Source: an uncultured Eubacterium sp. (GTDB lineage: Bacteria > Bacillota > Clostridia > Peptostreptococcales > Anaerovoracaceae). Taken from it: a DNA stretch of 64,000 bases. The DNA is taken from contig CAMNSS010000005.1 in assembly GCA_946555345.1 (NCBI GenBank), positions 1 through 64,000 of the forward strand, read 5' to 3'. A model generated the notes under the pieces. The model was not told the DNA's origin, did no database searches, and saw nothing but the letters and a program-made list of their open reading frames with translations. Positions 8,521 to 64,000 of the stretch are shown here, in pieces (positions within the stretch are counted from its first letter, which is position 1; every line of letters starts with the position of its first letter). Position numbers and translations under genes: made by a program.

Positions 8521-11500
8521 CTACTGCTCTTCAAAGCGTTTCTGCTGTTTTTTCAAATTCCTGTACCGCTGCATTGCGATATTTTCCGCCTGCTCAAATA
8601 GCATCTCCGCCCTGTCAGGGTCTTTGAGCTGGAGCGAATTGTACCTTACCTCTCCCATAATGAAGTCATTGAAGCTTTCCGTAGGCGGAGCGCTGTCAAC
8701 CGACAGCGGATTTCTCTTCTGTGCCACGAGGTCAGGGTTATAGCGGAGCAAATTCCAATATCCTGCCCGCACTGCCTTCTTCATCTCCAGCATTGCGCGG
8801 TTCATGCCCGCTTTCACGCCGTGGTTGATGCAAGGCGCATAAGCGATGATGAGGGACGGTCCGTCGTAAGCCTCCGCTTCCTTGATTGCCTGAAGTGTCT
8901 GCTGCGGATTCGCGCCCATTGCGATCTGTGCCACATAGACATATCCATAAGCCATGGCAATCTGTGCCAAATCCTTCTTTCTCACCGCTTTTCCACTGGC
9001 CGCAAACTGCGCCACCGCACCAGTCGGCGTAGCCTTGGATGCCTGCCCGCCTGTATTGGAATATACTTCCGTGTCGAACACCAGCACGTTCACGTTCTCG
9101 CCGGAAGCCAGCACATGGTCAAGACCGCCGTAACCGATATCGTAAGCCCAGCCATCGCCGCCGAAGATCCACATGGACGGCTTACTCAGCATATCCGCAT
9201 TTTCCACGACATATTTGGCATCCTCGATCACCGTATAATCCTTGCACAGCGCAACCAGCCGCTCGCCCAGCTTCCCAGCATTCTCCGCATCGTCCATATG
9301 CGCAAGCCATGCTTTCGCATCCTCGGTAAAGCGGATATCCGCCATCAGTTTTTCCACGTGGGATTTCAGTTCATTTCTTCTCGCCTTGACGGCCACAGCC
9401 ATCCCGTAACCAAATTCCGCATTGTCCTCAAAGAGGGAATTGGACCACGCAGGACCCTTGCCTGCTTTGTTTACGGTATACGGCGTGCTCGGCGCACTGC
9501 ATCCCCAAATCGAGGAGCAACCCGTCGCATTGGCGATATACATCCGGTCGCCGAAAAGCTGCGTCACCAGCTTCGCATACGGCGTTTCCCCGCAGCCAGG
9601 GCAAGCGCCCGAGAACTCTAAGAGCGGCTGCTTGAACTGGGACTGCTTCACCGTTTCCGCATTACCGGAAAGTCCATTGTTATCGATTGTTTCAAACAAA
9701 TAATCGTAATCACGCTGCGCCTTCTCAGCGGCATCTTCCGCCATTACCATTTCAAGCGCCTTCTGCCTTGCCGGGCAGACATCGGCGCATGACCCACAGC
9801 CCGTACAGTCAAGAGCCGAGATGCCGATGGTGAAGAATTTCTCCCCATCGCCCTTGAATGAAACAACATCCGCCTCCGTTTCCTCCGCCTGTTTTTGATC
9901 CAGCACAAACGGCCTGATTACGGCATGTGGGCAGACATAGGAACACCAGTTGCACTGCATGCACTTTTCCGCATCCCACTTCGGGATTTCAACGGCAATG
10001 CCGCGCTTTTCATAGGCAGCCGTGCCAGCAGGAATCACCCCGTTTGCCGTATCGACAAATACCGATACCGGAATGGAATCCCCTTCCATGCCATTGGTCG
10101 GCTTCAGGACTTTGTTGATGTAGTCCGTATGCAGCTTATCCCTTCCCTGCGCCTGCTCCCTGGCAAGGCTTCCGTCTGCTTCTGCCCAGTGCGCCGGAAT
10201 TTCCACCTTATGTACACTGTCAATACCGGCCGCTACAGCCTGGTAATTCATGTAAACAATTTTCTTTCCCTTGTTGCTGTAAGTCTTCTTGATGGCCTCC
10301 TTCATGTATTCCGCTGCATCGTAAACAGGCAGGATGTTGGCCAGCTTGAAGAACGCCGCCTGCAAAACCGTATTCGATCTGCCGCCAAGCCCCAGCTCCC
10401 TTGCGATCGTAACCGCATCGCAGGTATAGAAGTTAATCTTATTTTCCGCAATATAACGCTTCACATTGCCTGGAAGCTTTTCCTCCAGTTGCTCCTGGTC
10501 CCAGGAACAGTTGAGCAGGAACGTGCCGCCCGGCTTCACATCTTCAACCATGCTGTACCGGTTGATATAAGCGGCATTATGGCAGGCTACGAAATCAGCC
10601 TGTTTCACATAGTAGGACGATTTGATCGGTGTATCACCAAACCTTAAATGGGAAATGGTAACGCCGCCGGATTTCTTTGAATCATACTGGAAATACGCCT
10701 GTACGTACTTATCCGTATTATCGCCGATGATCTTAACGCTGTTCTTGTTTGCGCCGACCGTACCGTCTGCGCCAAGCCCCCAGAATTTGCAGGCAACGGT
10801 TCCTTCCTGCGCCACATCAGGCCGTTCGCTGGCCTTCAAGGAAAGCCCGGTCACATCGTCCTCAATCGAAATCGTAAATTCCTTCTTCGGGTTTTTCTCC
10901 CAAAGGTTTTCATACACGGCCAGGATATCCTCCGGCTGCGTATCCTTCGAGCCAAGGCCGTAACGCCCGCCTGCCAAGAATACCTTGTCAAGCTTGCTGT
11001 CTTTGAGCGCTGCCGCAACATCGAGGAAAAGCGGCTCGCCAATCGAACCAGGCTCTTTCGTCCGGTCTAACACAGCGATCTTTTTCACCGTCCCAGGAAT
11101 CACCGCAAGCAGGTGCTTTGCCGAAAACGGCCTGTAGAGATGCACGCTGACGACGCCCGTCTTTTTGCCCTTTGCATTGAGGTAATCGACGATTTCCTCT
11201 GCCGCATCGCAAACCGAACCCATGGCGATGATGATCTCCGTCGCATCCTCCGCCCCATAGTAATTAAACGGCTTATAAGATGTCCCCAGCTTTTCATTTA
11301 CCTGCTCCATGCACTTGATCACCGTGTCCACGGTTTCCTCATACGCTTTATTGCAGGCCTCCCTGTGCTGGAAGAACGTTTCCGGCTGCTCGGCAGACCC
11401 CATGCTCTGCGGATGGTTTGGATTGAGCGCCCTGTTCCGGAATCGCTTCAGCGCATCCCAGTCCACCATGCTTTTCAGCTCGTCGTAATCCCAAGTCTCG

Positions 11501-22177: not shown

Positions 22178-24352
22178 TTATTTCGCCGCCCTTCTTTTTT
22201 TGATAAATACCCCGCATATGCCGATTGCCGATAAAAGAATCAGGTTAATGGCAACGATTGCTTCCCAGGGAAAGAGATCCCCTGTTTCGGGGAACGAACC
22301 CCCATGCTTGACATCCTTCACAACGACTGGATTACTGATCCGGACAGTCTGTTTTGTGTTATTGATGTCTTCGTGGACTGCGGCAAGCACTCCATCTGTA
22401 TACAAGCGTTCAAATACGACCAAATCCTCTCCGCCAAGCGCCGAAGCATCAAAATGAAATGGGATATCGATAGATCCGGCCTGCTCTTTCGGCGTAAATT
22501 CCACGCTGCCCTCGACCTGTTTTCCATCCACGACAAGCGGCTTTCCCGTGCTTTTTACATACACCGTGCCTTTTGCGGTATACGCCCTGCCGCAAGTAAG
22601 GCCTTCATAATCCAGCTTGTCCACTAGCACAAAATCAACGCCCGCCAAAGCCTCCTTTTTCCCAGTCTCTTTATCGCTGGCGGAAGTTTCAATCTGAATC
22701 ACATTATCCGTCACTGTGCCTAAATTGACGGTTACATTATGCTTATATACCACGACCTCAACTCCTTGGATAAGCGTCAGCCCTACATTAGCTTCGCACG
22801 GCTGTTCATCCAAAATGTAAGTATCATAAGGCAATGCCCCCAGCGAATCATTCACCTGCTCCATATTGCCAAACCACACGCCTGCTGTTTCACTGCCTTG
22901 ATTTGTCTCTGTACCATGGGAATTCCAGCCTGCCGCAGTTGATGCGTACCCATTGGCGTCGGTTATCAGCGTATGGCTCTCTCCCGTGGACTTGCTTGTC
23001 AGCGTAAAAGGCACATTTGCAAGCCTTCCCAATGAATCCCCTTCTACCTTAATCAGTTCAATATCGCCCCGGATGATCTGCTCCTGATGCAGCGGTACGG
23101 CATATGTATCTACCGCCTCCACTGTTCCCGCCGATGTCACCTGGCGCACATGGACGGTGTCGTCAAGCACGTAACCTTCTGGCGCTTTCACCTCTTGTAT
23201 AGTAACCGTCCCCAACGGCAGGACAGTTTGTCCATCGGAAGAATAATAAAAGGGATCGCCTGATACGAGCTGTGCGTCATTTAATGAAGCTTGTCCGCTT
23301 GCATCGGTCCTAATTTTCCATGAACGAAGCGGTATCATTTTGCTGAAATCCGTTGCATCAGGATAATAACCATCGTAATAATTGACCTGATAATGTGCAT
23401 TTTCAAGACTCGCTGCAAATTGGGCCGTATTGTCAGCGCTCCAGCCGTCATGGGTTTCCCGATCCGTTTTATGGATCATCATCGTGACCGGATTTGCCTG
23501 CGGCTGTTCCGTCACATCCTTCATCGTTACAGCCGAATCGACGTGAATGTCATAGGCAGTAAGATCCACGGCATACCCCGGGCTTGCGGATATCTCCTTG
23601 AGCGTATAAGATCCGTACGGAATGTTTTCCAAGGAAGCCTTGCCGTTGGCATTGGTCGTCAAAGTCCCTACCAAAGCCTCACCCTGATACAAGCCGTATT
23701 TTGCGCCAGCAAGTGAATAACAGTTATTCCCATCGGTGATCCCCTGGTTTGCCGATGCCTTGGTTATCGTAACCGACCCCGTGGATTGCAATCCTCTGTA
23801 TACCCTGTACCTGTCGCAGTTTTTATCCGCATCAGGCCATGACATCCATTCTGAAAGCGTCGGTGCAGCTACAACGCCGACGGAAGACCTGGCATGGTAC
23901 AAAACGCCGCCCTCCCCCAAAATCGCACAGTGCGTCCCGTCCGAGCCCTCGCTGAATATGACGATATCGCCCGGTTTCATGTTTGAAGCGATTGTTCCCG
24001 ATGTGCCTTCTGCCACTTTGGTGATTCCCGCATTGATCAACTTCGCTTCCAGTCCTTCTACTGGTGAATTTGTTCCCCAGTCAACACCATAAGCGTTGGC
24101 CAAACACCAATATACATACCCGGTGCATTTTCCCGCCTCTTGATATCCCGTTCCGATCTTTTGCTGGATAACGGACTTTACATCGGTCCAGGAACGGTTG
24201 CTGATAGCGGTCTCGGATGCTGCATCAGCCCTTACTGCATGAAATATGTATGGCGCTAAAACGCTTATCAATGCTACTGCGCACGCAATCACAATCCAAA
24301 TATGTTTGTTGATTCGTTGCCTGTTTTTGTTCATTCCCCTTGTTCTCATCAT
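22178..24352 (-). CDS. Sortase-anchored surface protein: NlpC/P60-CHAP-like domain plus SpaA/Cna_B repeats
   Basis: 724 residues. A basic N-terminus and hydrophobic segment (about 18-42) form the export signal. Residues about 55-170 look like an NlpC/P60 or CHAP-type fold, with Cys76 in GKCTGYVYWC and His141 in GTHCAILG as probable catalytic residues. At least two SpaA/Cna_B-like beta domains follow (YGLYQGEALVGTLTTNANG…YTLKEISASPGY; NVPFTLTSKSTGE), then a domain ending …FHFDASALGGEDLVVFE. The C-terminus has FPETG (687-691), a hydrophobic helix and KKRRAAK, a variant LPXTG sorting signal. It is probably an exported cell-wall-linked hydrolase or adhesin. It lies 51 bp after the TadZ-like gene and has an AGGAGGG site. 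Confidence 0.85.
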   Translation of the reverse strand: MMRTRGMNKNRQRINKHIWIVIACAVALISVLAPYIFHAVRADAASETAISNRSWTDVKSVIQQKIGTGYQEAGKCTGYVYWCLANAYGVDWGTNSPVEGLEAKLINAGITKVAEGTSGTIASNMKPGDIVIFSEGSDGTHCAILGEGGVLYHARSSVGVVAAPTLSEWMSWPDADKNCDRYRVYRGLQSTGSVTITKASANQGITDGNNCYSLAGAKYGLYQGEALVGTLTTNANGKASLENIPYGSYTLKEISASPGYAVDLTAYDIHVDSAVTMKDVTEQPQANPVTMMIHKTDRETHDGWSADNTAQFAASLENAHYQVNYYDGYYPDATDFSKMIPLRSWKIRTDASGQASLNDAQLVSGDPFYYSSDGQTVLPLGTVTIQEVKAPEGYVLDDTVHVRQVTSAGTVEAVDTYAVPLHQEQIIRGDIELIKVEGDSLGRLANVPFTLTSKSTGESHTLITDANGYASTAAGWNSHGTETNQGSETAGVWFGNMEQVNDSLGALPYDTYILDEQPCEANVGLTLIQGVEVVVYKHNVTVNLGTVTDNVIQIETSASDKETGKKEALAGVDFVLVDKLDYEGLTCGRAYTAKGTVYVKSTGKPLVVDGKQVEGSVEFTPKEQAGSIDIPFHFDASALGGEDLVVFERLYTDGVLAAVHEDINNTKQTVRISNPVVVKDVKHGGSFPETGDLFPWEAIVAINLILLSAIGICGVFIKKRRAAK

Positions 24353-52245: not shown

Positions 52246-52676
52246 GCAACAAAAGAGGCCTCTACGCACGTTGACATTCTATTGATGACAGCCGCCCCAG
52301 GTTTTACTGGCTAACAAACAGGTTTCAAACAGAGATTTTTCAGCAAACAGCCCATACGCACCCTTGTTTTACCTGCACTTTCCTTTCCACGCCTTTCGTT
52401 TCCTTCACCTGCCAATAGATTTCTTATAGGAATCCACAAATAATATTGTATAATAGATGGTAGGTATTTTGGCATAATAATTTGGCAGGTTCAGCTAATG
52501 CAAACGCGCACTGGGCATGCTTATCCACTTGGTGCAATCTGTGCAACCCAGCGCTGCACGGTTCGGTGTCTAACCAGCTTGCGCATCCAGCGCATTCCGC
52601 CGATGCGCAAGACAACCACAATCGATGTTCCGCACAAACATTCGCCAAACGCCCGCCCAAAACAGGAGGACAAACG

Positions 52677-53876
52677 ATGAACAGGATCATACTTCATTGC
52701 GATATGAACGGGTTCTTTGCCTCGGTGGAGCTGCTCGATTACCCAGAGCTGAGAAACCAGCCCATGGCAGTCTGCGGCAGCCCCGAAAACCGCCACGGCA
52801 TTATACTGGCGAAAAACGAAATCGCCAAAAGCTACGGCGTCGTTACAGCCGAAACGCTATGGCAGGCAAGGAAAAAATGCCCCGGCCTGCAAATTGTGCC
52901 ACCCCATCACGAAAAATACAGGCATTACAGCAAGCTGATCAATCAAATCTACCTCCGTTTCACCGATATGGTCGAACCGTTTAGCGTGGATGAATCCTGG
53001 CTGGACGTGACCGCAAGCCAGAACCTCTTCGGCACGGGAAAAGAAATCGCCGATGCGATCCGCAAGACCGTAAAAAAAGAACTGGGGCTTACCTTGTCCG
53101 CTGGCGTCTCTTTCAACAAGATCTTCGCCAAAATGGGCAGCGACTACAAAAAACCTGACGCGACCACCGTTATAACGAAGGAAAATTATAAAACCATCCT
53201 CTGGCCAATGGATATCCGCTCCCTCTTCTTCGTCGGGAAAGCGACCGCCAAAAAGCTACAGGAGTACGGCATCAAAACCATCGGCGAGCTGGCTCTGTCG
53301 GACAAAAAAACGGTTTCCGCCCTGCTCGGCAAGCAAGGCAGCGTGATTCATGACTATGCCAACGGGCTGGACATGACGCCCGTGCTTCGTTATGGCCAGA
53401 TGGAAAAAGCGAAATCAATCGGAAACGGCACGACCTTCCGCCGCAACCTGCAAAGCACGGATGACATTCACGCCGCCGTCACGGGACTATCCGACACGGT
53501 AGCCTCGCGCCTCCGCAAACATAAGATGAAAGCCTTCGGGGTCAAGGTCGATATCAAAGACCCCGATTTAAAAGTGATTTCGAGACAGCAGCAGCTCGAT
53601 AACCCGACAAACCTAGCTGAAACCATTGCAAACACAGCCATGCAAATCATCAAGAAATCATGGAAGCTCCGCAATCCGATCCGCATGCTGACGATCACAG
53701 CCATCAACCTGTGCGACGAAAACCAAGCACAGCAGCTTTCCCTCTTCGCAAGGGAAAACATCCTCACGGAAAAAGGCGAAAAGGTCGAACGCGCCATGGA
53801 TGCAATCCGGGAGAAATTCGGCGATGAAGCCATCACCTTCGGGTCGGTGATCAACAACGACATCGGGCTGGATTAA
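52677..53876 (+). CDS. dinB: DNA polymerase IV (Y-family)
   Basis: 399 residues. Catalytic acids are D9 (LHCDMNGFFASVE) and D105-E106 (FSVDESWLD). The little-finger domain fills the C-terminal half, with a clamp-binding QLSLF motif. It copies past DNA lesions at low fidelity. ATG at 52677 has AGGAGG seven bases upstream; the open frame reaches back to 52482. No clear LexA box was found. Degenerate repeats follow its stop. Confidence 0.93.
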   Translation: MNRIILHCDMNGFFASVELLDYPELRNQPMAVCGSPENRHGIILAKNEIAKSYGVVTAETLWQARKKCPGLQIVPPHHEKYRHYSKLINQIYLRFTDMVEPFSVDESWLDVTASQNLFGTGKEIADAIRKTVKKELGLTLSAGVSFNKIFAKMGSDYKKPDATTVITKENYKTILWPMDIRSLFFVGKATAKKLQEYGIKTIGELALSDKKTVSALLGKQGSVIHDYANGLDMTPVLRYGQMEKAKSIGNGTTFRRNLQSTDDIHAAVTGLSDTVASRLRKHKMKAFGVKVDIKDPDLKVISRQQQLDNPTNLAETIANTAMQIIKKSWKLRNPIRMLTITAINLCDENQAQQLSLFARENILTEKGEKVERAMDAIREKFGDEAITFGSVINNDIGLD

Positions 53877-56309: not shown

Positions 56310-56353
56310 TCGCATCATAAATCAATTAGAATATAAACAAGGAGGTCTGCTCT

Positions 56354-56716: not shown

Positions 56717-59313
56717 AAGCCGAAATACAGACAAGCACTCATCTGATTATGGCGATTGCCGCCACGATATGCAGCATGATGCTTATTGTGATCATTCCGG
56801 CAATGTCTTGGGAACTGTGGATGATCCCGCTGGCCATCGCTGGCAATAGCATTATATGGTTTCTCCACATCGGAAGGCTTGGTTCAGCAACGCTTTACGA
56901 AAACCTGTGCGCCGCAGTGATGGTCATCGAATTTTTTTTCTTTAGCATTCACAGCACCAGCCTCTTTGACATCCCTCTCATCGCCTGCATCCTGCTTCTC
57001 GTCTTTTCCCTGCCGGACAGAAGGATGCTGCTTTATCTCACGGTCGCCGCATACGGGCTGTCGTTGCTCTATCACGGCCTGTTTCTCGATACTATTGCCT
57101 CCGGCATCGGAATCGAGCTCATGACGCACCTGATCCTTGGCGCAGCGGTAACCGCAGGCGTGCTTGGGATTTCAATATACCGCCTCAACAGGCGAAGGGA
57201 AGCATATAAAAAACAAAGCGGAGTCCGCACAGAGCTGGAACTAGCCAGCCGGCAAAATGCTGAATTTCTATCAAATGTATCCCACGAACTTCGCACGCCT
57301 ATCAACATGGTGCTGGGAATTAGCGAGGTTGCCCTGAATAAGGATATTACCCCTGAAATACGGGAAGATATGCATTCCATCCAGCTGGCAGGCAAGCGCC
57401 TGTCCAGTGAAATTAATAATATCCTCGATTATACAGAAAGCGTGGAAGGTACACTGACGGCGGTGAACGAAGAATACATGATCACATCCGTCATTAACGA
57501 TGTTATCACGACAGTCACCATGCAAAACAGCAAACCACAACTTGAACTGGTATTTGACATCGACCCTAAGATCCCACTAGTCTTAATCGGCGATGCGGAA
57601 AAAATTTCCCATATATTGAAAATCCTCCTCGATAACTCCATCAAATTTACGGAACAGGGAGGGGTCAACATTTGCGTTGGATTCCGAAAAGAAAAATATG
57701 GGATCAACCTGCTCATCGATGTCTACGATACCGGTATCGGCATGACACCTTCCCAGCTTGCCCAAATCCACGATGATTTTTACCAAGCGGATTCCGGCAG
57801 CGATCGGTTCGCCGGAGGATTAGGGCTTGGCATACCCATCGCACGCGCCCTGCTCCAAGCCATGGGTGGTTTTGCCCACTTTACAAGCGTCAAACAAGAG
57901 GGGTTGCAAATACATATTACCATTCCGCAGGGAGTGGCAAACAATACGCCGGGGATCGTCATCCCGCATGTGGAGCAGCTTTGCATCGCATGTTATTTCA
58001 AACCGGATCGCTACAATTCCGATGAAGTCAAGAAGTATTATGACAAGATGATTTTTCATTTGGTGAACGGTCTTGGCATCGAAGGATACCAGGTCCACAC
58101 CTTTGGAGAATTTCTCAAAATAAAGGAAAAGCATAACCTGTCCCATCTATTTATCGCACAAGCTGATTACATGGAAAACGCCGATTACTACGAGAATCTG
58201 GCGAAGAGCATCCGGGTCGTGGTAATCGCAGACAGGACATTATCTTTACACAAGGACAGCAAACTGCTCATAATCCGCAAGCCGCTCTTTATGCTTTCCG
58301 TTGTAAACCTGCTCAACGGCGAAATCCATCGAAATCATGCGGAAGAAGAACAAACCGTCGTCCACAAGCAATTTTCCTGTGTAGGCGTCCGCGTTCTGGC
58401 TGTCGATGATGAAGAGATGAATCTCGTGGTATCCAAAGGCATTTTGGGCAGCTACGGGATACAGGTGGATACCTGCCTCAGTGGAAAGGAGGCAATTGAA
58501 AAATGCCGCAACATGTCCTATGACCTTGTATTTCTGGATCATATGATGCCAGGGATGGACGGAATAGAAACCTTGCGGCGCATCCGCGAAATCGACAGCG
58601 GCATTTACAAGGAACTGCCGATCATCGCACTGACCGCAAATACGGTCAGCGGTGCGCGGGAAATGTTTAAAAGCGAAGGCTTTACGGAATTTGTGCCGAA
58701 ACCAATCGAACGCACGATTCTGGAGCGAGTGCTGCGCCGAGTGCTTCCAGAACACTGCATCCGTTACAGCGACCAATATGAAACATTCCTTGAACTTGAC
58801 AACGGCTCGCTAAGCAAAGCAGACCCGCCAGACAATACATCCGTAAGCCAAAGCGCCCAACAAGCGTCCACAGAGCCTGAAAGCGGTTCACTCCCAGCAG
58901 AAGAGACGGTGACAAATCCATCCACTCCTGCGCCAAATAGTCCATTGCCTTACGAAAAGCTTTCCGATATCGGTCTCAACGTAGAAACAGGGCTGGAATA
59001 TTGTTGCGGGGAAGATGGTTTTTACCGTGAAATGCTGCAAATGTTTTATGGACAGGGCAGCGAAAAGAAAAAAGAACTCACCGCCTTGTATGAGGCAGCA
59101 AACTGGGCAGATTATGCAGTCAAAGTCCATGCGCTAAAAAGCACGGCTCTGACCATCGGTGCAGAAGAACTTTCGACCCGCGCGAAAGCATTGGAACAAG
59201 CGGGAAAAAAAGAAGATGCAGTGTATATCAAAGAGAATCACTCGGCAATGTTGCATATGTACGAGGAACTCTGCGAGAATCTTTCCAGATTAGTGGGAGA
59301 GGAGGAATGTTAG
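56713..59313 (+). CDS. Hybrid sensor histidine kinase with receiver and HPt domains
   Basis: 866 residues. About five membrane helices (about 10-155) form the sensor. HisKA has His191 in NVSHELRTPIN, followed by HATPase_c (DNSIKF, DTGIGM, GGLGLGIPIA). After a stretch that looks like a degenerate receiver (about 415-545), an intact receiver has Asp609 in VFLDHMMPGMDG. A Ser/Pro/Thr-rich linker (about 700-745) leads to an HPt domain with His806 in VHALKSTAL. The order implies a complete internal phosphorelay. The output is not in the operon. Confidence 0.92.
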   Translation: MKAEIQTSTHLIMAIAATICSMMLIVIIPAMSWELWMIPLAIAGNSIIWFLHIGRLGSATLYENLCAAVMVIEFFFFSIHSTSLFDIPLIACILLLVFSLPDRRMLLYLTVAAYGLSLLYHGLFLDTIASGIGIELMTHLILGAAVTAGVLGISIYRLNRRREAYKKQSGVRTELELASRQNAEFLSNVSHELRTPINMVLGISEVALNKDITPEIREDMHSIQLAGKRLSSEINNILDYTESVEGTLTAVNEEYMITSVINDVITTVTMQNSKPQLELVFDIDPKIPLVLIGDAEKISHILKILLDNSIKFTEQGGVNICVGFRKEKYGINLLIDVYDTGIGMTPSQLAQIHDDFYQADSGSDRFAGGLGLGIPIARALLQAMGGFAHFTSVKQEGLQIHITIPQGVANNTPGIVIPHVEQLCIACYFKPDRYNSDEVKKYYDKMIFHLVNGLGIEGYQVHTFGEFLKIKEKHNLSHLFIAQADYMENADYYENLAKSIRVVVIADRTLSLHKDSKLLIIRKPLFMLSVVNLLNGEIHRNHAEEEQTVVHKQFSCVGVRVLAVDDEEMNLVVSKGILGSYGIQVDTCLSGKEAIEKCRNMSYDLVFLDHMMPGMDGIETLRRIREIDSGIYKELPIIALTANTVSGAREMFKSEGFTEFVPKPIERTILERVLRRVLPEHCIRYSDQYETFLELDNGSLSKADPPDNTSVSQSAQQASTEPESGSLPAEETVTNPSTPAPNSPLPYEKLSDIGLNVETGLEYCCGEDGFYREMLQMFYGQGSEKKKELTALYEAANWADYAVKVHALKSTALTIGAEELSTRAKALEQAGKKEDAVYIKENHSAMLHMYEELCENLSRLVGEEEC

Positions 59314-59314
59314 C

Positions 59315-62068
59315 GTGTACAAACTCGTGTACAAAAAATGGATCAAAACTATCTTCGATCACACAATCAGCCTGCGGGAACGTATGTTCCGCGTGGTTAC
59401 GGCGATTACCATGATTTCTTTGACCTTTATATTGCTCATGGGAGGACAGCTTTCCAATATCATTATCTTGGCGGGAAGCCTTCTCTTCATGTCCATTGTC
59501 GTAAAGTACAGCATCCAAAAACAGTCCATCAATACGGGAGCGACCCTGATTGTCATATGGTTGCTCATGATTTTTCCCGTTAGTTTTTTTACGCCGGGAG
59601 GAATTTACGGCGGCGCATCCGAGTGGTTCGTCATCTGTTTCATCTATATCAGCTTGACGCTGAAAGGAAGACGCATGCCTGTGTTTTTTCTGCTCTGTGC
59701 AGCGGAAACACTGCTCTGCTATTACATTTCCTTTCACTCCCCCGCCTACGTAGCACAAACCTCACCAGATTACTCCTATTTTGGGGCGGCCAACGCCGTC
59801 ATTCTGGCAGGCGTGCTGACCAGCATACTGCTCCTATTCCAAAACCATCTTTATGAAGAAGAATACAAGCTGTCTGAAAAGCAAAAGAAGGAAATCGAGG
59901 AGCTGAACCAAGCGGAGAACAACTTTTTCTCCAGCATGAGCCATGAAATCCGCACGCCGATCAATACCATCATCGGACTAAACGAAATGACCTTGCGTGA
60001 AGATGTTCCCAGCGAGATCGAAGAAAACGCCCGCAATATCCAAGCCGCCAGCAAGATACTCCTTTCCCTCATCAACGATATCCTCGATCTTTCCAAGATC
60101 AAATCCGGCAAGATGGAAATCGTAAATGCTTCTTACGAAACCGGCGAGCTTTTTTCGGAAATCGTAAACATGATCTGGATCAAAGCGAAAGAAAAAGGGC
60201 TAGACTTCCGGCTTCGCATCGATCCCTCCATTCCCAGCATGCTCTGCAGCGATGAAGTACGCATCAAACAAATTTTAATCAACCTGCTGAACAATGCGGT
60301 AAAATACACGAGCAAAGGCTCCGTCACTTTGTCCGTCCGCTGCGAACGCCTGACTCTCAACAGGGTACGCGTCTGCTATTCTGTAGAAGACACGGGACTA
60401 GGAATAAAAAAGGAGAATATGCCTTATCTGTTCAACGCATTTAAGCGAGTAGACGAAAAAAAGAACCGCCACATTGAGGGAACCGGCCTGGGGCTTAATA
60501 TCGTCCGCCAGCTAGTCGAGCTGATGGACGGAAAAATCAGCGTCAACAGCGTTTACACGAAAGGCTCCACTTTCCTCGTCGAGCTGGAACAGGATATTGT
60601 CAATGATACGGAGCTGGGAACTTTTACGCTGGCTTCCCGCACCAAAATACATGAAAGAAAACAATATAAGCAAAGCTTCGAAGCGCCCGATGCACATCTT
60701 TTAATCGTGGATGATAATGAGATGAACTTGCTGGTTGCCCGCAAGCTCCTTTCGGATACAAAAATCCAGATCGATACAGCCCCAAGCGGCGCAGAATGCT
60801 TAAAAATGACACAAAACCAACATTACGACGGAATTTTAATGGATCACCTGATGCCGGAAATGGATGGCATCAAATGTTTCCATGCGTTGCAAACCCAGCC
60901 TGGAGGGCTTTGCCAGGACGTTCCAGTCATTGCGCTGACGGCCAATGCCGGAAGCGACAACCAGCAACTCTACCGAAAAGAAGGATTCAGCGGTTACTTG
61001 GCAAAACCAGTCAGCGGCACATTGCTGGAAGCAGCCGTGTTACGCATCCTGCCAAAAGAGCTTGTGACACTGACGGAAGAATCCGAATTATCTGAGATCG
61101 GGAAAGATATCCTGCTCTTTGAACAAACGAAAAAAATGTCCATCATGGTCACAACGGACAGCGTATGCGACCTGCCTCAGTCTTTAAAAGACGAGTTTGG
61201 CATTTCTGTATGCCCTTACTATGTCTGCACGGATCAAGGGCGTTTCCTGGATGAAAATGAACTATGGCCTGACGAACTGCTGGCGCATATCATGCAAGGG
61301 AACGATGGATTTTCCCAGCCTCCTGACGTGGAGGATTATGAAAGGTTTTTTGCTGAAAAATTGACTGACGCGCAAAACGTAATCCACATCACGATGGCAA
61401 AACACGTCAGCGATGGCTATGAACATGCCGTGGAAGCAGCGAAATCCTTCGAAAACGTTACTGTCATCGATTCCGGGCATCTTTCCAGCAGCATGGGGCT
61501 GGCGGCGCTGTATGCCGCCTCCATGGCGGAAAACCATGCGACAAAGGATGAAATCGTCGAAACCATAAACAAGCTGTCGCACCAAATTTCCTCCGCCTTT
61601 ATCGTAGACAGCACCCAAATGCTGTGCCAGGCGGGGAAAATACCAAAATATGTTAAAACGCTCTGCGATACATTGCTGCTGCATCCGATCATCGTACTGC
61701 GGAAGAGTAAAATGACAGTTGGCAGCATGGCGGTTGGCAACTTTACCCGCATGGCAAAACATTACGTCCGCAGGATATTCGCTAATGCGGCAAACATCGA
61801 CCGGCGCATCCTGTTTATTACCTATGCGGGAATGGACGACCAAAAGCTCCGCTACATCCAAAGCCTGGTTAACCAGTACTGCCCATTTGAAAGGGTATAC
61901 CTGCAAAAAGCATCTTCTGCTATTTCCAGCAACTGCGGACCGGGATCCTTCGGCCTGCTGTTTATGAAAAAAAACGATGCGGTGATTTCTTTTGCGCAAA
62001 TGGCACATTCGCAGACCGCACAAACAGCACAAGCGACACAAACAACAGCGCAAAACGAACCAAGCTGA
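59315..62068 (+). CDS. Membrane histidine kinase-receiver-DegV fusion protein
   Basis: 917 residues. About six membrane helices (about 22-185), a short coiled coil, HisKA with His210 in SMSHEIRTPIN, HATPase_c (NNAVKY, DTGLGI, GTGLGLNIV) and a receiver with Asp510 (ILMDHLMPEMDG) come first. From residue 608 the chain is a DegV/FakB domain of about 285 residues: TTDSVCDLP, SQPPDVEDYERFF, VIDSGHLSSSMGL and GPGSFGLLF. DegV proteins bind fatty acids, usually as partners of fatty-acid kinase. The usual LSGTY loop reads VSDGY here and GGRI reads AGKI, so ligand contacts may differ. The tail SQTAQTAQATQTTAQ is repetitive. GTG start with GGAGG nine bases upstream, one base after the previous stop. Confidence 0.92.
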   Translation: MYKLVYKKWIKTIFDHTISLRERMFRVVTAITMISLTFILLMGGQLSNIIILAGSLLFMSIVVKYSIQKQSINTGATLIVIWLLMIFPVSFFTPGGIYGGASEWFVICFIYISLTLKGRRMPVFFLLCAAETLLCYYISFHSPAYVAQTSPDYSYFGAANAVILAGVLTSILLLFQNHLYEEEYKLSEKQKKEIEELNQAENNFFSSMSHEIRTPINTIIGLNEMTLREDVPSEIEENARNIQAASKILLSLINDILDLSKIKSGKMEIVNASYETGELFSEIVNMIWIKAKEKGLDFRLRIDPSIPSMLCSDEVRIKQILINLLNNAVKYTSKGSVTLSVRCERLTLNRVRVCYSVEDTGLGIKKENMPYLFNAFKRVDEKKNRHIEGTGLGLNIVRQLVELMDGKISVNSVYTKGSTFLVELEQDIVNDTELGTFTLASRTKIHERKQYKQSFEAPDAHLLIVDDNEMNLLVARKLLSDTKIQIDTAPSGAECLKMTQNQHYDGILMDHLMPEMDGIKCFHALQTQPGGLCQDVPVIALTANAGSDNQQLYRKEGFSGYLAKPVSGTLLEAAVLRILPKELVTLTEESELSEIGKDILLFEQTKKMSIMVTTDSVCDLPQSLKDEFGISVCPYYVCTDQGRFLDENELWPDELLAHIMQGNDGFSQPPDVEDYERFFAEKLTDAQNVIHITMAKHVSDGYEHAVEAAKSFENVTVIDSGHLSSSMGLAALYAASMAENHATKDEIVETINKLSHQISSAFIVDSTQMLCQAGKIPKYVKTLCDTLLLHPIIVLRKSKMTVGSMAVGNFTRMAKHYVRRIFANAANIDRRILFITYAGMDDQKLRYIQSLVNQYCPFERVYLQKASSAISSNCGPGSFGLLFMKKNDAVISFAQMAHSQTAQTAQATQTTAQNEPS

Positions 62069-62383: not shown

Positions 62384-63343
62384 TCACGATAAAACCTCCG
62401 CCAGCTCGTAAATATCACGTCCAAAATCCCGCTTGATCTGCAAAGCATCCGCCAAATCATACGCCACGATTTCACTGCCGCAGATTCCGATTGCCTTGCT
62501 GCTTTCATCGTTATACAAAAGCTGCACAGCCTTCGTCGCCATCAAGCTCGCTAAAAACCGGTCCCTGCCGCTCGGCGTTCCGCCTCTTTGGATATGCGCC
62601 GGAACGACTGCGCGGGCTTCCCGCCCCGTCCGTTCCTCGACGATCTTCGCCAGCTCTTCCGCACCCATTTCAACACCTTCCGCCTTGACGATAATGCTAT
62701 GCAGCTTTCCTGATTGTTGCCCCCTTAAAACCTTTCGGCAAACGAGATTGATATCCAACGGCACTTCCGGCACTAAAATTACATCAGCGCCGCCGCCAAG
62801 CCCAGCATGAAGCGCAATATCCCCACAGCGGCGCCCCATCACCTCCACGATGGTCGTCCGCTCATGGGCAGAAGCTGTGTCCCTGATATTTGAAACGAGC
62901 GACAATACCGTATTGACAGCCGTGTCAAAGCCGATGGTATAGTCCGTATAACCCAGGTCATTATCGATCGTTCCCGGAACGCCCATCACCTTGATGCCCT
63001 TTTTCGCAAGCGCAAGCCCGCCCCGGAAAGATCCGTCGCCGCCGATGACCACGAGGCCTTCTATACCAAAAGTGTCCAGCATCATTGCGGCATGCGCCTC
63101 GCCTTCCTTCGTGTTAAAGCGTTCGCTTCTGGCCGTCCTTAAAATCGTCCCGCCCCGTTGCAGGATATCGCCAACGGATTTCCATTCCATCTTTTTAATA
63201 TCGCCGTCCATCAAACCTTCATAACCGCGCTCAATCCCGTAGACATCCATCCCCAGGGAAAGCCCTTTCCTCACTGCTGCCCGCACAGCCGCATTCATGC
63301 CGGGCGCGTCCCCGCCGCTTGTCAGTACGCCTATTTTTTTCAT
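62384..63343 (-). CDS. pfkA: ATP-dependent 6-phosphofructokinase
   Basis: About 319 residues. GGDGS at 101-105 with Gly104 marks the ATP (not pyrophosphate) type. GTIDNDLGYTDYTIGFDTAVN holds catalytic Asp127 and Asp129, and MGRRCGDIA binds fructose-6-phosphate. It catalyses the committed step of glycolysis. ATG at 63343 fits the family N-terminus. It follows dnaE by 17 bp, the common dnaE-pfkA order in Firmicutes. Confidence 0.96.
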   Translation of the reverse strand: MKKIGVLTSGGDAPGMNAAVRAAVRKGLSLGMDVYGIERGYEGLMDGDIKKMEWKSVGDILQRGGTILRTARSERFNTKEGEAHAAMMLDTFGIEGLVVIGGDGSFRGGLALAKKGIKVMGVPGTIDNDLGYTDYTIGFDTAVNTVLSLVSNIRDTASAHERTTIVEVMGRRCGDIALHAGLGGGADVILVPEVPLDINLVCRKVLRGQQSGKLHSIIVKAEGVEMGAEELAKIVEERTGREARAVVPAHIQRGGTPSGRDRFLASLMATKAVQLLYNDESSKAIGICGSEIVAYDLADALQIKRDFGRDIYELAEVLS

Positions 63344-63360
63344 AATCCTACGCCACCTCA

Positions 63361-64000
63361 CTATCCTTTATAATTTTCTTCACCTACTATATTAACGATT
63401 TTATGCCGGAATCCGGCGTCCGGATTCACCCAAAGATCAGAATCCGTGCGGAAGGATTTGCCGCCTGTCATGTAAATGATCACCTGGCAATCCCCCTTGT
63501 GCTGCTGCATAATGCGCTTGATGCTTTCCAAAATCGCTTGCGCATTCCCTTCGGGCAGCTTGATCTTCACGATTCCCGCAGGCTCCTTGCGCTCATGCAG
63601 CGCCCCGATCTCCTTTAACGATACGATCTTGTCCGCCAAAAGCTTCGGCATCTCCTCTTCCTTGAAGTTGATCGTCCCAGCGATGGACACGACTTTATCC
63701 TCTTCTACCAGGTTGCTGAACCGTTCGTATATGTTTGGAAATACCACTACCTCCGCCGTACCCATCAAATCCTCCAGCCCCACGAAAGCCATCATCTTAT
63801 TATTCTTCGTGATCAGCGTTTTCTTCGACGTTATTATGCCCGCCATCACTGCGCTCATACCATCCCGCACGAAGCTGTGGGTTTCGCCCCGCTGTTCACT
63901 TTCCAGCACGTCAGCCAAATCCTGCGAAGTCACCGTAACGTGTGCGGCGATCTGTTCCTCATATTCACGCAGCGGATGGTCGGTGATGTAAACGCCCAGC
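63361..64000 (-). CDS. dnaE: DNA polymerase III alpha subunit (DnaE), C-terminal part, cut by the window edge
   Basis: The last 213 codons are visible. They begin within LGVYITDHPLREYEEQI, the conserved join to the OB-fold domain, and continue with the OB fold (VMAGIITSKKTLITKNNKMMAFVGLEDLMGTAEVVVFPNIY) and a C-terminal domain. It is the replicative polymerase of the DnaE type. The gene is complete at its 3' end and continues past 64000. Confidence 0.95.
   Translation of the reverse strand, partial: LGVYITDHPLREYEEQIAAHVTVTSQDLADVLESEQRGETHSFVRDGMSAVMAGIITSKKTLITKNNKMMAFVGLEDLMGTAEVVVFPNIYERFSNLVEEDKVVSIAGTINFKEEEMPKLLADKIVSLKEIGALHERKEPAGIVKIKLPEGNAQAILESIKRIMQQHKGDCQVIIYMTGGKSFRTDSDLWVNPDAGFRHKIVNIVGEENYKG

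Follow-up and report, generated by a model that had tools for sequence, protein, structure and literature searches.

Three genes on the forward strand form a compact cassette near the end of the window, by which we mean the whole stretch of 64,000 nucleotides analysed here. They encode a lone CheY-like receiver, a membrane hybrid kinase (HK1) and a second hybrid kinase with a DegV tail (HK2), and they lie between a dinB gene on the left and pfk on the right (Table 1).

Table 1. Features of the cassette and its flanks, in positions of the window.
Feature	Position	Strand	Basis
DinB-type polymerase gene (dinB), left flank	52482..53876	+	Pfam; beside pfk in G127
Ribosome-binding-like AAGGAGG ahead of receiver gene	56339..56345	+	Direct sequence reading
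Lone receiver, CheY-like, 120 aa	56354..56716	+	Pfam Response_reg, 110.5 bits
HK1, membrane hybrid kinase HisKA-HATPase-receiver-Hpt, 866 aa	56713..59313	+	Pfam
Shine-Dalgarno-like AGAGGAGG within the HK1 end, 9 bases ahead of the HK2 GTG	59298..59305	+	Sequence reading
HK2, DegV-tailed hybrid kinase, 917 aa	59315..62068	+	ORF list, Pfam, NCBIfam, relatives
HK2 membrane region, residues about 24-179	59384..59851	+	Kyte-Doolittle hydropathy scan
HK2 HisKA, residues 201-265	59915..60109	+	Pfam; SHEIRTP in 72/72 aligned rows
HK2 HATPase_c, residues 313-426	60251..60592	+	Pfam; GTGLGL in 72/72 aligned rows
HK2 receiver (Response_reg), residues 463-575	60701..61039	+	Pfam; phospho-Asp motif in 68/72 rows, strict pattern
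HK2 DegV domain, residues 610-885	61142..61969	+	Pfam, NCBIfam, PDB relatives
6-phosphofructokinase gene (pfk), right flank, yardstick of vertical descent	62384..63361	-	Pfam

HK1 starts four bases before the end of the receiver gene, and one base separates its stop codon from the GTG of HK2. Because of this overlap, the one-base gap and the Shine-Dalgarno-like AGAGGAGG, the three genes probably form one operon with coupled translation, and the position of the last element within the end of HK1 suggests that HK2 would be translationally coupled to it. Pfam revealed neither a c-di-GMP gene (GGDEF or HD-GYP) nor a Che gene in the window's cassette, which has the lone receiver instead, likely the end acceptor of a relay. 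A genome-wide search of the window's genome gave three GGDEF and six MCP matches above the cut-offs, so that partners of either kind are present. Farther away in the window, the minus strand encodes a surface-type protein that combines CHAP/NlpC-like, SpaA and T-Q ester bond domains (22178-24352).

The HK2 frame runs from its GTG start over 917 codons with no internal stop. A sequence-only reading of this DNA had proposed that a single frame joins a membrane histidine kinase, a receiver and a full DegV domain, and this was borne out by Pfam, NCBIfam and hydropathy; the frame holds neither a stop nor a frameshift between its receiver and DegV parts, so the fusion stands. Judged by its phospho-histidine box, ATP-binding G2 box and receiver aspartate, HK2 is a hybrid histidine kinase. 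It shares a HisKA-HATPase-receiver core with intact motifs with TorS, BarA and ArcB, but it scores far under the equivalog cut-offs of these kinases and carries DegV after the receiver. By sequence, the C-terminal domain is a complete member of the DegV family above both curated cut-offs, with 134.1 bits for PF02645 (cut-off 27; profile positions 2-279 of 280) and 147.0 bits for TIGR00762 (cut-off 99.7), and FakB1 and further DegV proteins are among its relatives in the PDB (best 2dt8, 90 bits). In contrast to known DegV/FakB proteins, it is joined to a membrane hybrid kinase and has glycine and asparagine in the columns of Arg205 and His270, respectively. The altered loops VSDGY and AGKI pointed out in the earlier reading are present in the window, but not all of their residues are typical of the 72 close rows, which comprise the window and its 71 full-length close relatives and underlie all 72-row motif counts: the first loop has V in 45/72 and S in 71/72, the second A in 37/72, with K in 15/72 and R in 37/72.

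The kinase-receiver-DegV fusion is real and widespread. A scan of the species-genome collection yielded 99 relatives of the HK2 DegV part in 109 candidate stretches, and the best 80 loci were kept, including the near-identical pairs L040/L041, L078/L079 and L050/L055. Homologues keeping the fusion, on which the earlier reading had made its proposal depend, were found at full length and aligned with the window in 71/80 of these loci, which rules out a frameshift or misassembly as the source of the fusion; the other nine are L063, with an 899-aa frame present, and eight contig-cut or fragmentary loci. The order receiver-HK1-HK2 is complete in 70/80 loci (tblastn), with mean identities to the window of 66% for the receiver, 59% for HK1 and 72% for HK2. 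Among the ten incomplete loci, eight are cut by the contig end just upstream, L017 is without a receiver gene at the expected position, and L051 is a fragment.

The cassette appears to have been acquired horizontally, because the corresponding site is free of it in the same-genus genome G127 and because the fusion tree mixes host labels. In G127, dinB and pfk adjoin with 15 bases between them; in G068, of the same genus, about 5 kb of other genes separates the two, the cassette is likewise absent, and neither genome gave a DegV match. Compared with G127, dinB of the window is inverted relative to pfk and a WYL-domain regulator lies between dinB and the cassette; the insertion was therefore not a clean single step, and the site was also rearranged. 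The flanks of the cassette are mostly unlike across the loci, with common flanks in a few close pairs.

With pfk as the yardstick, identity to the window amounts to 71% in G059 (locus L002) and 64% in G119 (L036), both from the same family, and to 43-54% in 25 of 27 further carriers; G176 and G179 gave a distant match alone (40-41%). From these identities and the record labels, the 27 further carriers are taken to lie outside the window's family. The fusion itself is 81-82% identical to that of the window in L002, 71-72% in L036 and 69-76% in the 27 further carriers. In the fusion tree, the sequence of the window, L002 and L003 form one group (support 1.0), which lies next to a Lachnospiraceae-labelled group and is nested among Lachnospiraceae-labelled sequences; L036, from the window's own family, falls within a mostly Oscillospiraceae-labelled group (0.999). 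Horizontal acquisition with repeated transfer between hosts is the simplest reading of these data. As to possible vehicles, phage and plasmid carriage were both dismissed: a viral scan, sensitive to no more than close relatives, confirmed no relative, and 18 plasmid records matched, of which the ten listed all show 27.0% identity or less. To judge by the record labels, many carriers seem to be isolates or metagenome bins from the gut. Cultured carriers include Acetatifactor muris and Sporofaciens musculi.

Apart from this clade, more distant fusions exist. When 391 genomes of the class were searched with the DegV of the window as query, three such fusions came up besides the window (38-44% identity). 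In a phylum-wide search, 22 of 398 genomes matched and frames of at least 700 aa occurred in three only, all of them from the window's class, so that no fusion was seen beyond this class in the 398-genome sample. The DegV of one distant fusion, used as query, matched in 38/250 genomes of one family, where 36/51 rows lie in frames of 885-930 aa and 7/51 in frames of 1128-1166 aa, and in 68/188 genomes of another order. Sixty neighbourhoods were inspected, namely 40/51 rows of the first family and 20/68 rows of the other order, the latter from two genera and hence not independent; domains were called with few-sequence queries, and Pfam was run on a sample.

All but a few of these 60 fusions keep the kinase motifs under strict patterns (H-box 59, G2 box 60, receiver Asp motif 54). 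An HK1-like kinase-receiver precedes the fusion in the gene run in 57/60 neighbourhoods and is split (L143), partial (L136) or contig-cut (L153) in the remaining three. Strict patterns detected the H-box in 55, the receiver Asp in 43 and the Hpt motif in 36 of the 57 HK1-like partners; Hpt is absent in some of them, and that of L140 falls under the Pfam cut-off. Six fusions of 1123-1152 aa have a kinase-receiver-DegV-Hpt layout (L148, L153, L154, L156, L158 and L160; Pfam for L156 and L158), each with a kinase-receiver beside it except the contig-cut L153. On a single contig, L138 is permuted: its DegV domain is N-terminal, and the membrane segments, the kinase and the receiver come after it. 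In L097 (172-3263), a receiver gene is followed by the DegV kinase with no HK1 between them, and a thiamine pyrophosphokinase gene lies downstream.

Genes for c-di-GMP regulators are part of the gene run in 37/60 neighbourhoods, encoding GGDEF plus HD-GYP in 18, HD-GYP in 10 and GGDEF in 9; a further 7 have CheA/CheW/MCP genes, 4 a lone receiver and 4 a longer receiver with no assigned output, and no output gene was seen in 8. By origin, c-di-GMP domains occur in 19/40 and Che genes in 7/40 neighbourhoods of the first family, and c-di-GMP domains in 18/20 of the other order, from the two genera. The regulators largely retain their motifs (GG[DE]EF 26/27, HDxGK 26/28, HHE..GYP 28/28), and Pfam, which was also run on L156 and L158, confirmed HD in L098, GGDEF in L099 and CheA, CheW and MCP in L140. 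As ten carrier genomes have only 2-9 GGDEF matches each, DegV kinases and c-di-GMP genes seem to adjoin much more often than a random order of genes would give. Relatives with such genes resemble c-di-GMP phosphorelays of the REC-GGDEF and REC-HD-GYP type, from which the window's clade differs by its lone receiver. The neighbourhoods with Che genes are like known CheA-CheW-MCP clusters but have two hybrid kinases, one of them with DegV, after the MCP gene. Of the seven MCPs next to DegV kinases, six share a C-terminal tail that ends in FGKY and might tether an adaptation enzyme (L140 7979-9331, L134 8054-9409, L127 8071-9447, L159 8051-9394, L130 2480-3823 and L139 2467-3822); the exception is L141. 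In L147, a flagellar hook-type gene, FlgE by Pfam (8737-10275), lies two genes ahead of the HK1-like kinase.

According to passages in two reports on Staphylococcus aureus FakB1, its carboxylate network consists of Thr62, Ser95, Ser171 and His270, Arg173 serves catalysis, Arg205 serves binding of FakA and of the membrane, and both arginines are termed completely conserved in FakB proteins (PMC8892158; PMC9136124). We compared 135 fusions (72 of the window clade and 63 of a broad set) with 20 standalone DegVs, 19 from carrier genomes and one from the window's family, a set biased to high-scoring DegVs; the FakB1-numbered columns were set by motif, FakB1 itself being outside the alignment. The Arg205 column, assigned to FakA docking in these passages, holds Gly in 134/135 fusions (Gly808 in the window) versus Arg in 18/20 standalone proteins, and the Arg173 column, assigned to catalysis, holds Arg in 55/135 fusions (Lys775 in the window) versus 20/20. 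In a midpoint-rooted tree, all fusion DegVs fall into one clade (135/135, support 0.84), separate from the 20 standalone DegVs and from three Dak2-FakA_M-DegV proteins.

In the window's genome (G000, 96% complete), the fusion is the sole DegV detected; FakA-like_C was not found there, and the lone Dak2 match is a standalone protein of 209 aa. FakA-like_C is present in 36/40 carrier genomes and was not found in the other four (G000, G148, G170 and G171); coupling of DegV to FakA would thus be possible in principle in most carriers. Since the fusion is the single DegV in three of these four genomes (G000, G148 and G170), DegV can probably function without FakA. Given the roles that the cited passages assign to the two arginines, Gly808 and Lys775, together with the lack of a detected FakA in the genome, speak strongly against the HK2 DegV as a working FakB subunit.

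Any DegV match at all was found in only 17/148 genomes of the window's own family. This family also contains Dak2-FakA_M-DegV fusions (Pfam; L093 1-1641, L094 1032-2879 and L095 41-1813), and the notion of the sequence-only reading that DegV normally acts alone needs qualifying in this respect. Frames of about 600 aa with DegV in G073, G061 and G035 of this family, considered as further kinase fusions, proved to be Dak2-FakA_M-DegV proteins. Such proteins share with HK2 a covalently joined DegV, but they join it to FakA-like parts and HK2 to a histidine kinase. In these proteins Arg205 is absent but Arg173 is kept (3/3), and the absence of Arg205 is as expected if a tethered kinase needs no docking.

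Because c-di-GMP or Che genes adjoin the kinases so often, the output would lie in the neighbouring genes and DegV would provide the input. An input role is favoured over an output role by these effectors and by the permuted L138, and for the same reasons ligand-gated phosphotransfer, one of two options offered earlier, fits better than control of lipid loading by phosphorylation, the other. The glycine in the Arg205 column and the lack of a detected FakA or other DegV in G000 were likewise counted for an input role. Against it counts that the order histidine kinase-receiver-X often marks X as an output domain. A ligand-coupled signalling protein is our best reading of the fusion. More specifically, and with confidence evenly divided, we propose that HK2 is one of two hybrid kinases in a self-contained phosphorelay with DegV as its ligand-sensing input. 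A cytosolic DegV domain, descended from the fatty-acid-carrier fold and severed from fatty-acid kinase, would sense a ligand located in the cytosol or at the membrane. This ligand would probably be a fatty acid or another amphiphile of that kind, and its binding would shift the kinase/phosphatase balance of HK2. Phosphate could then pass from HK2 to the Hpt domain of HK1 and on to the separate receiver, which would act on its targets. This terminal receiver would often be a c-di-GMP enzyme in distant relatives and a lone CheY-like protein in the window's clade, and in some distant relatives the kinases would work beside a CheA-CheW-MCP cluster. In this scheme we infer the directions of phosphotransfer, the ligand, the location of DegV in the cytosol and what the lone receiver acts on.

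DegV could also be an input whose pocket has been retuned for a metabolite other than a fatty acid, which we regard as unlikely, although several pocket columns have changed. The His270 column holds Asn in 131/135 fusions (72/72 in the window clade; Asn873 in the window) versus His in 15/20 standalone DegVs, Arg173 is not kept, and new residues, Cys618, His790 and Cys874, are invariant in the window clade (72/72) and occur in 28, 33 and 45 of the 63 broad-set sequences. However, carboxylate-network positions persist in the window clade, with Ser replacing Thr62 in 72/72 (Ser667 in the window) and Ser95 kept in 71/72 (Ser699), and the neighbouring genes hint at no alternative ligand. Compared with the network described in the cited passages, Ser667, Ser699 and Asn873 are thus polar yet altered. 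The polar anchor is not family-wide, since the broad set has Ser in the Ser95 column in 26/63 and Ser or Thr in the Thr62 column in 40/63.

That DegV instead acts as an output, with receiver phosphorylation governing lipid binding or delivery, would agree with the domain order, which resembles that of hybrid kinases with C-terminal output domains, but appears quite improbable in view of the separate effectors within the same gene run (37 c-di-GMP and 7 Che of 60), the N-terminal DegV of L138 and the near-universal loss of the arginine to which the cited passages ascribe FakA docking. We give little credence to the view that DegV binds no ligand and serves as a structural module in oligomerisation or in docking to HK1: docking between the kinases is conceivable, as an HK1-like kinase adjoins in 57/60 neighbourhoods, but the pocket anchors are invariant or nearly so in the window clade and the domain is complete (278 of 280 profile positions). 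Finally, the fusion might supply fatty-acid kinase as a FakB tethered to the membrane and signal only incidentally; this would suit the 36/40 carriers with FakA-like_C but is highly implausible given the four genomes in which it was not found and the state of the Arg205 (Gly 134/135) and Arg173 (Arg 55/135) columns, both arginines being needed for Fak according to a passage in PMC8892158.

Returning to DegV as a ligand-sensing input, this family of DegV-tailed kinases is apparently undescribed in print. In keeping with the sequence-only reading, which named no described system of this kind, no description of a kinase-receiver-DegV protein was found in open-access full text among the matches listed, although domain databases may list the architecture; likewise, no open-access paper on DegV together with c-di-GMP was found among the matches listed. 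To our knowledge, many DegV proteins still lack an assigned role other than that of FakB. A passage in one paper places DegV genes next to hemolysin III genes (PMC3146951). Another paper, with DegV in a deleted region together with a response regulator, was considered and set aside, the DegV in the passage concerned being a standalone protein grouped with predicted regulators (PMC12688256).

Beyond the initial proposal for this frame, the present analysis adds two partner genes, transfer between hosts, and relatives with c-di-GMP and chemosensory genes. As a tentative view that we hold at less than even confidence, we suggest that Clostridia harbour a widespread and so far undescribed family of hybrid kinases that sense lipids. 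In these kinases, a DegV domain freed from fatty-acid kinase would signal a lipid from inside the cell or from the membrane to c-di-GMP and chemosensory control, and one branch of the family would travel between host families as a mobile three-gene cassette. A DegV domain built into a kinase, and natural carriers in which FakA was not detected, make the question of whether this fold can serve as a sensor directly testable. The DegV kinase may offer bacteria a route to sense a fat-like molecule inside the cell and, if this view is true, lipid status would be linked to c-di-GMP or chemosensory signalling in Clostridia by a system that spreads between families.
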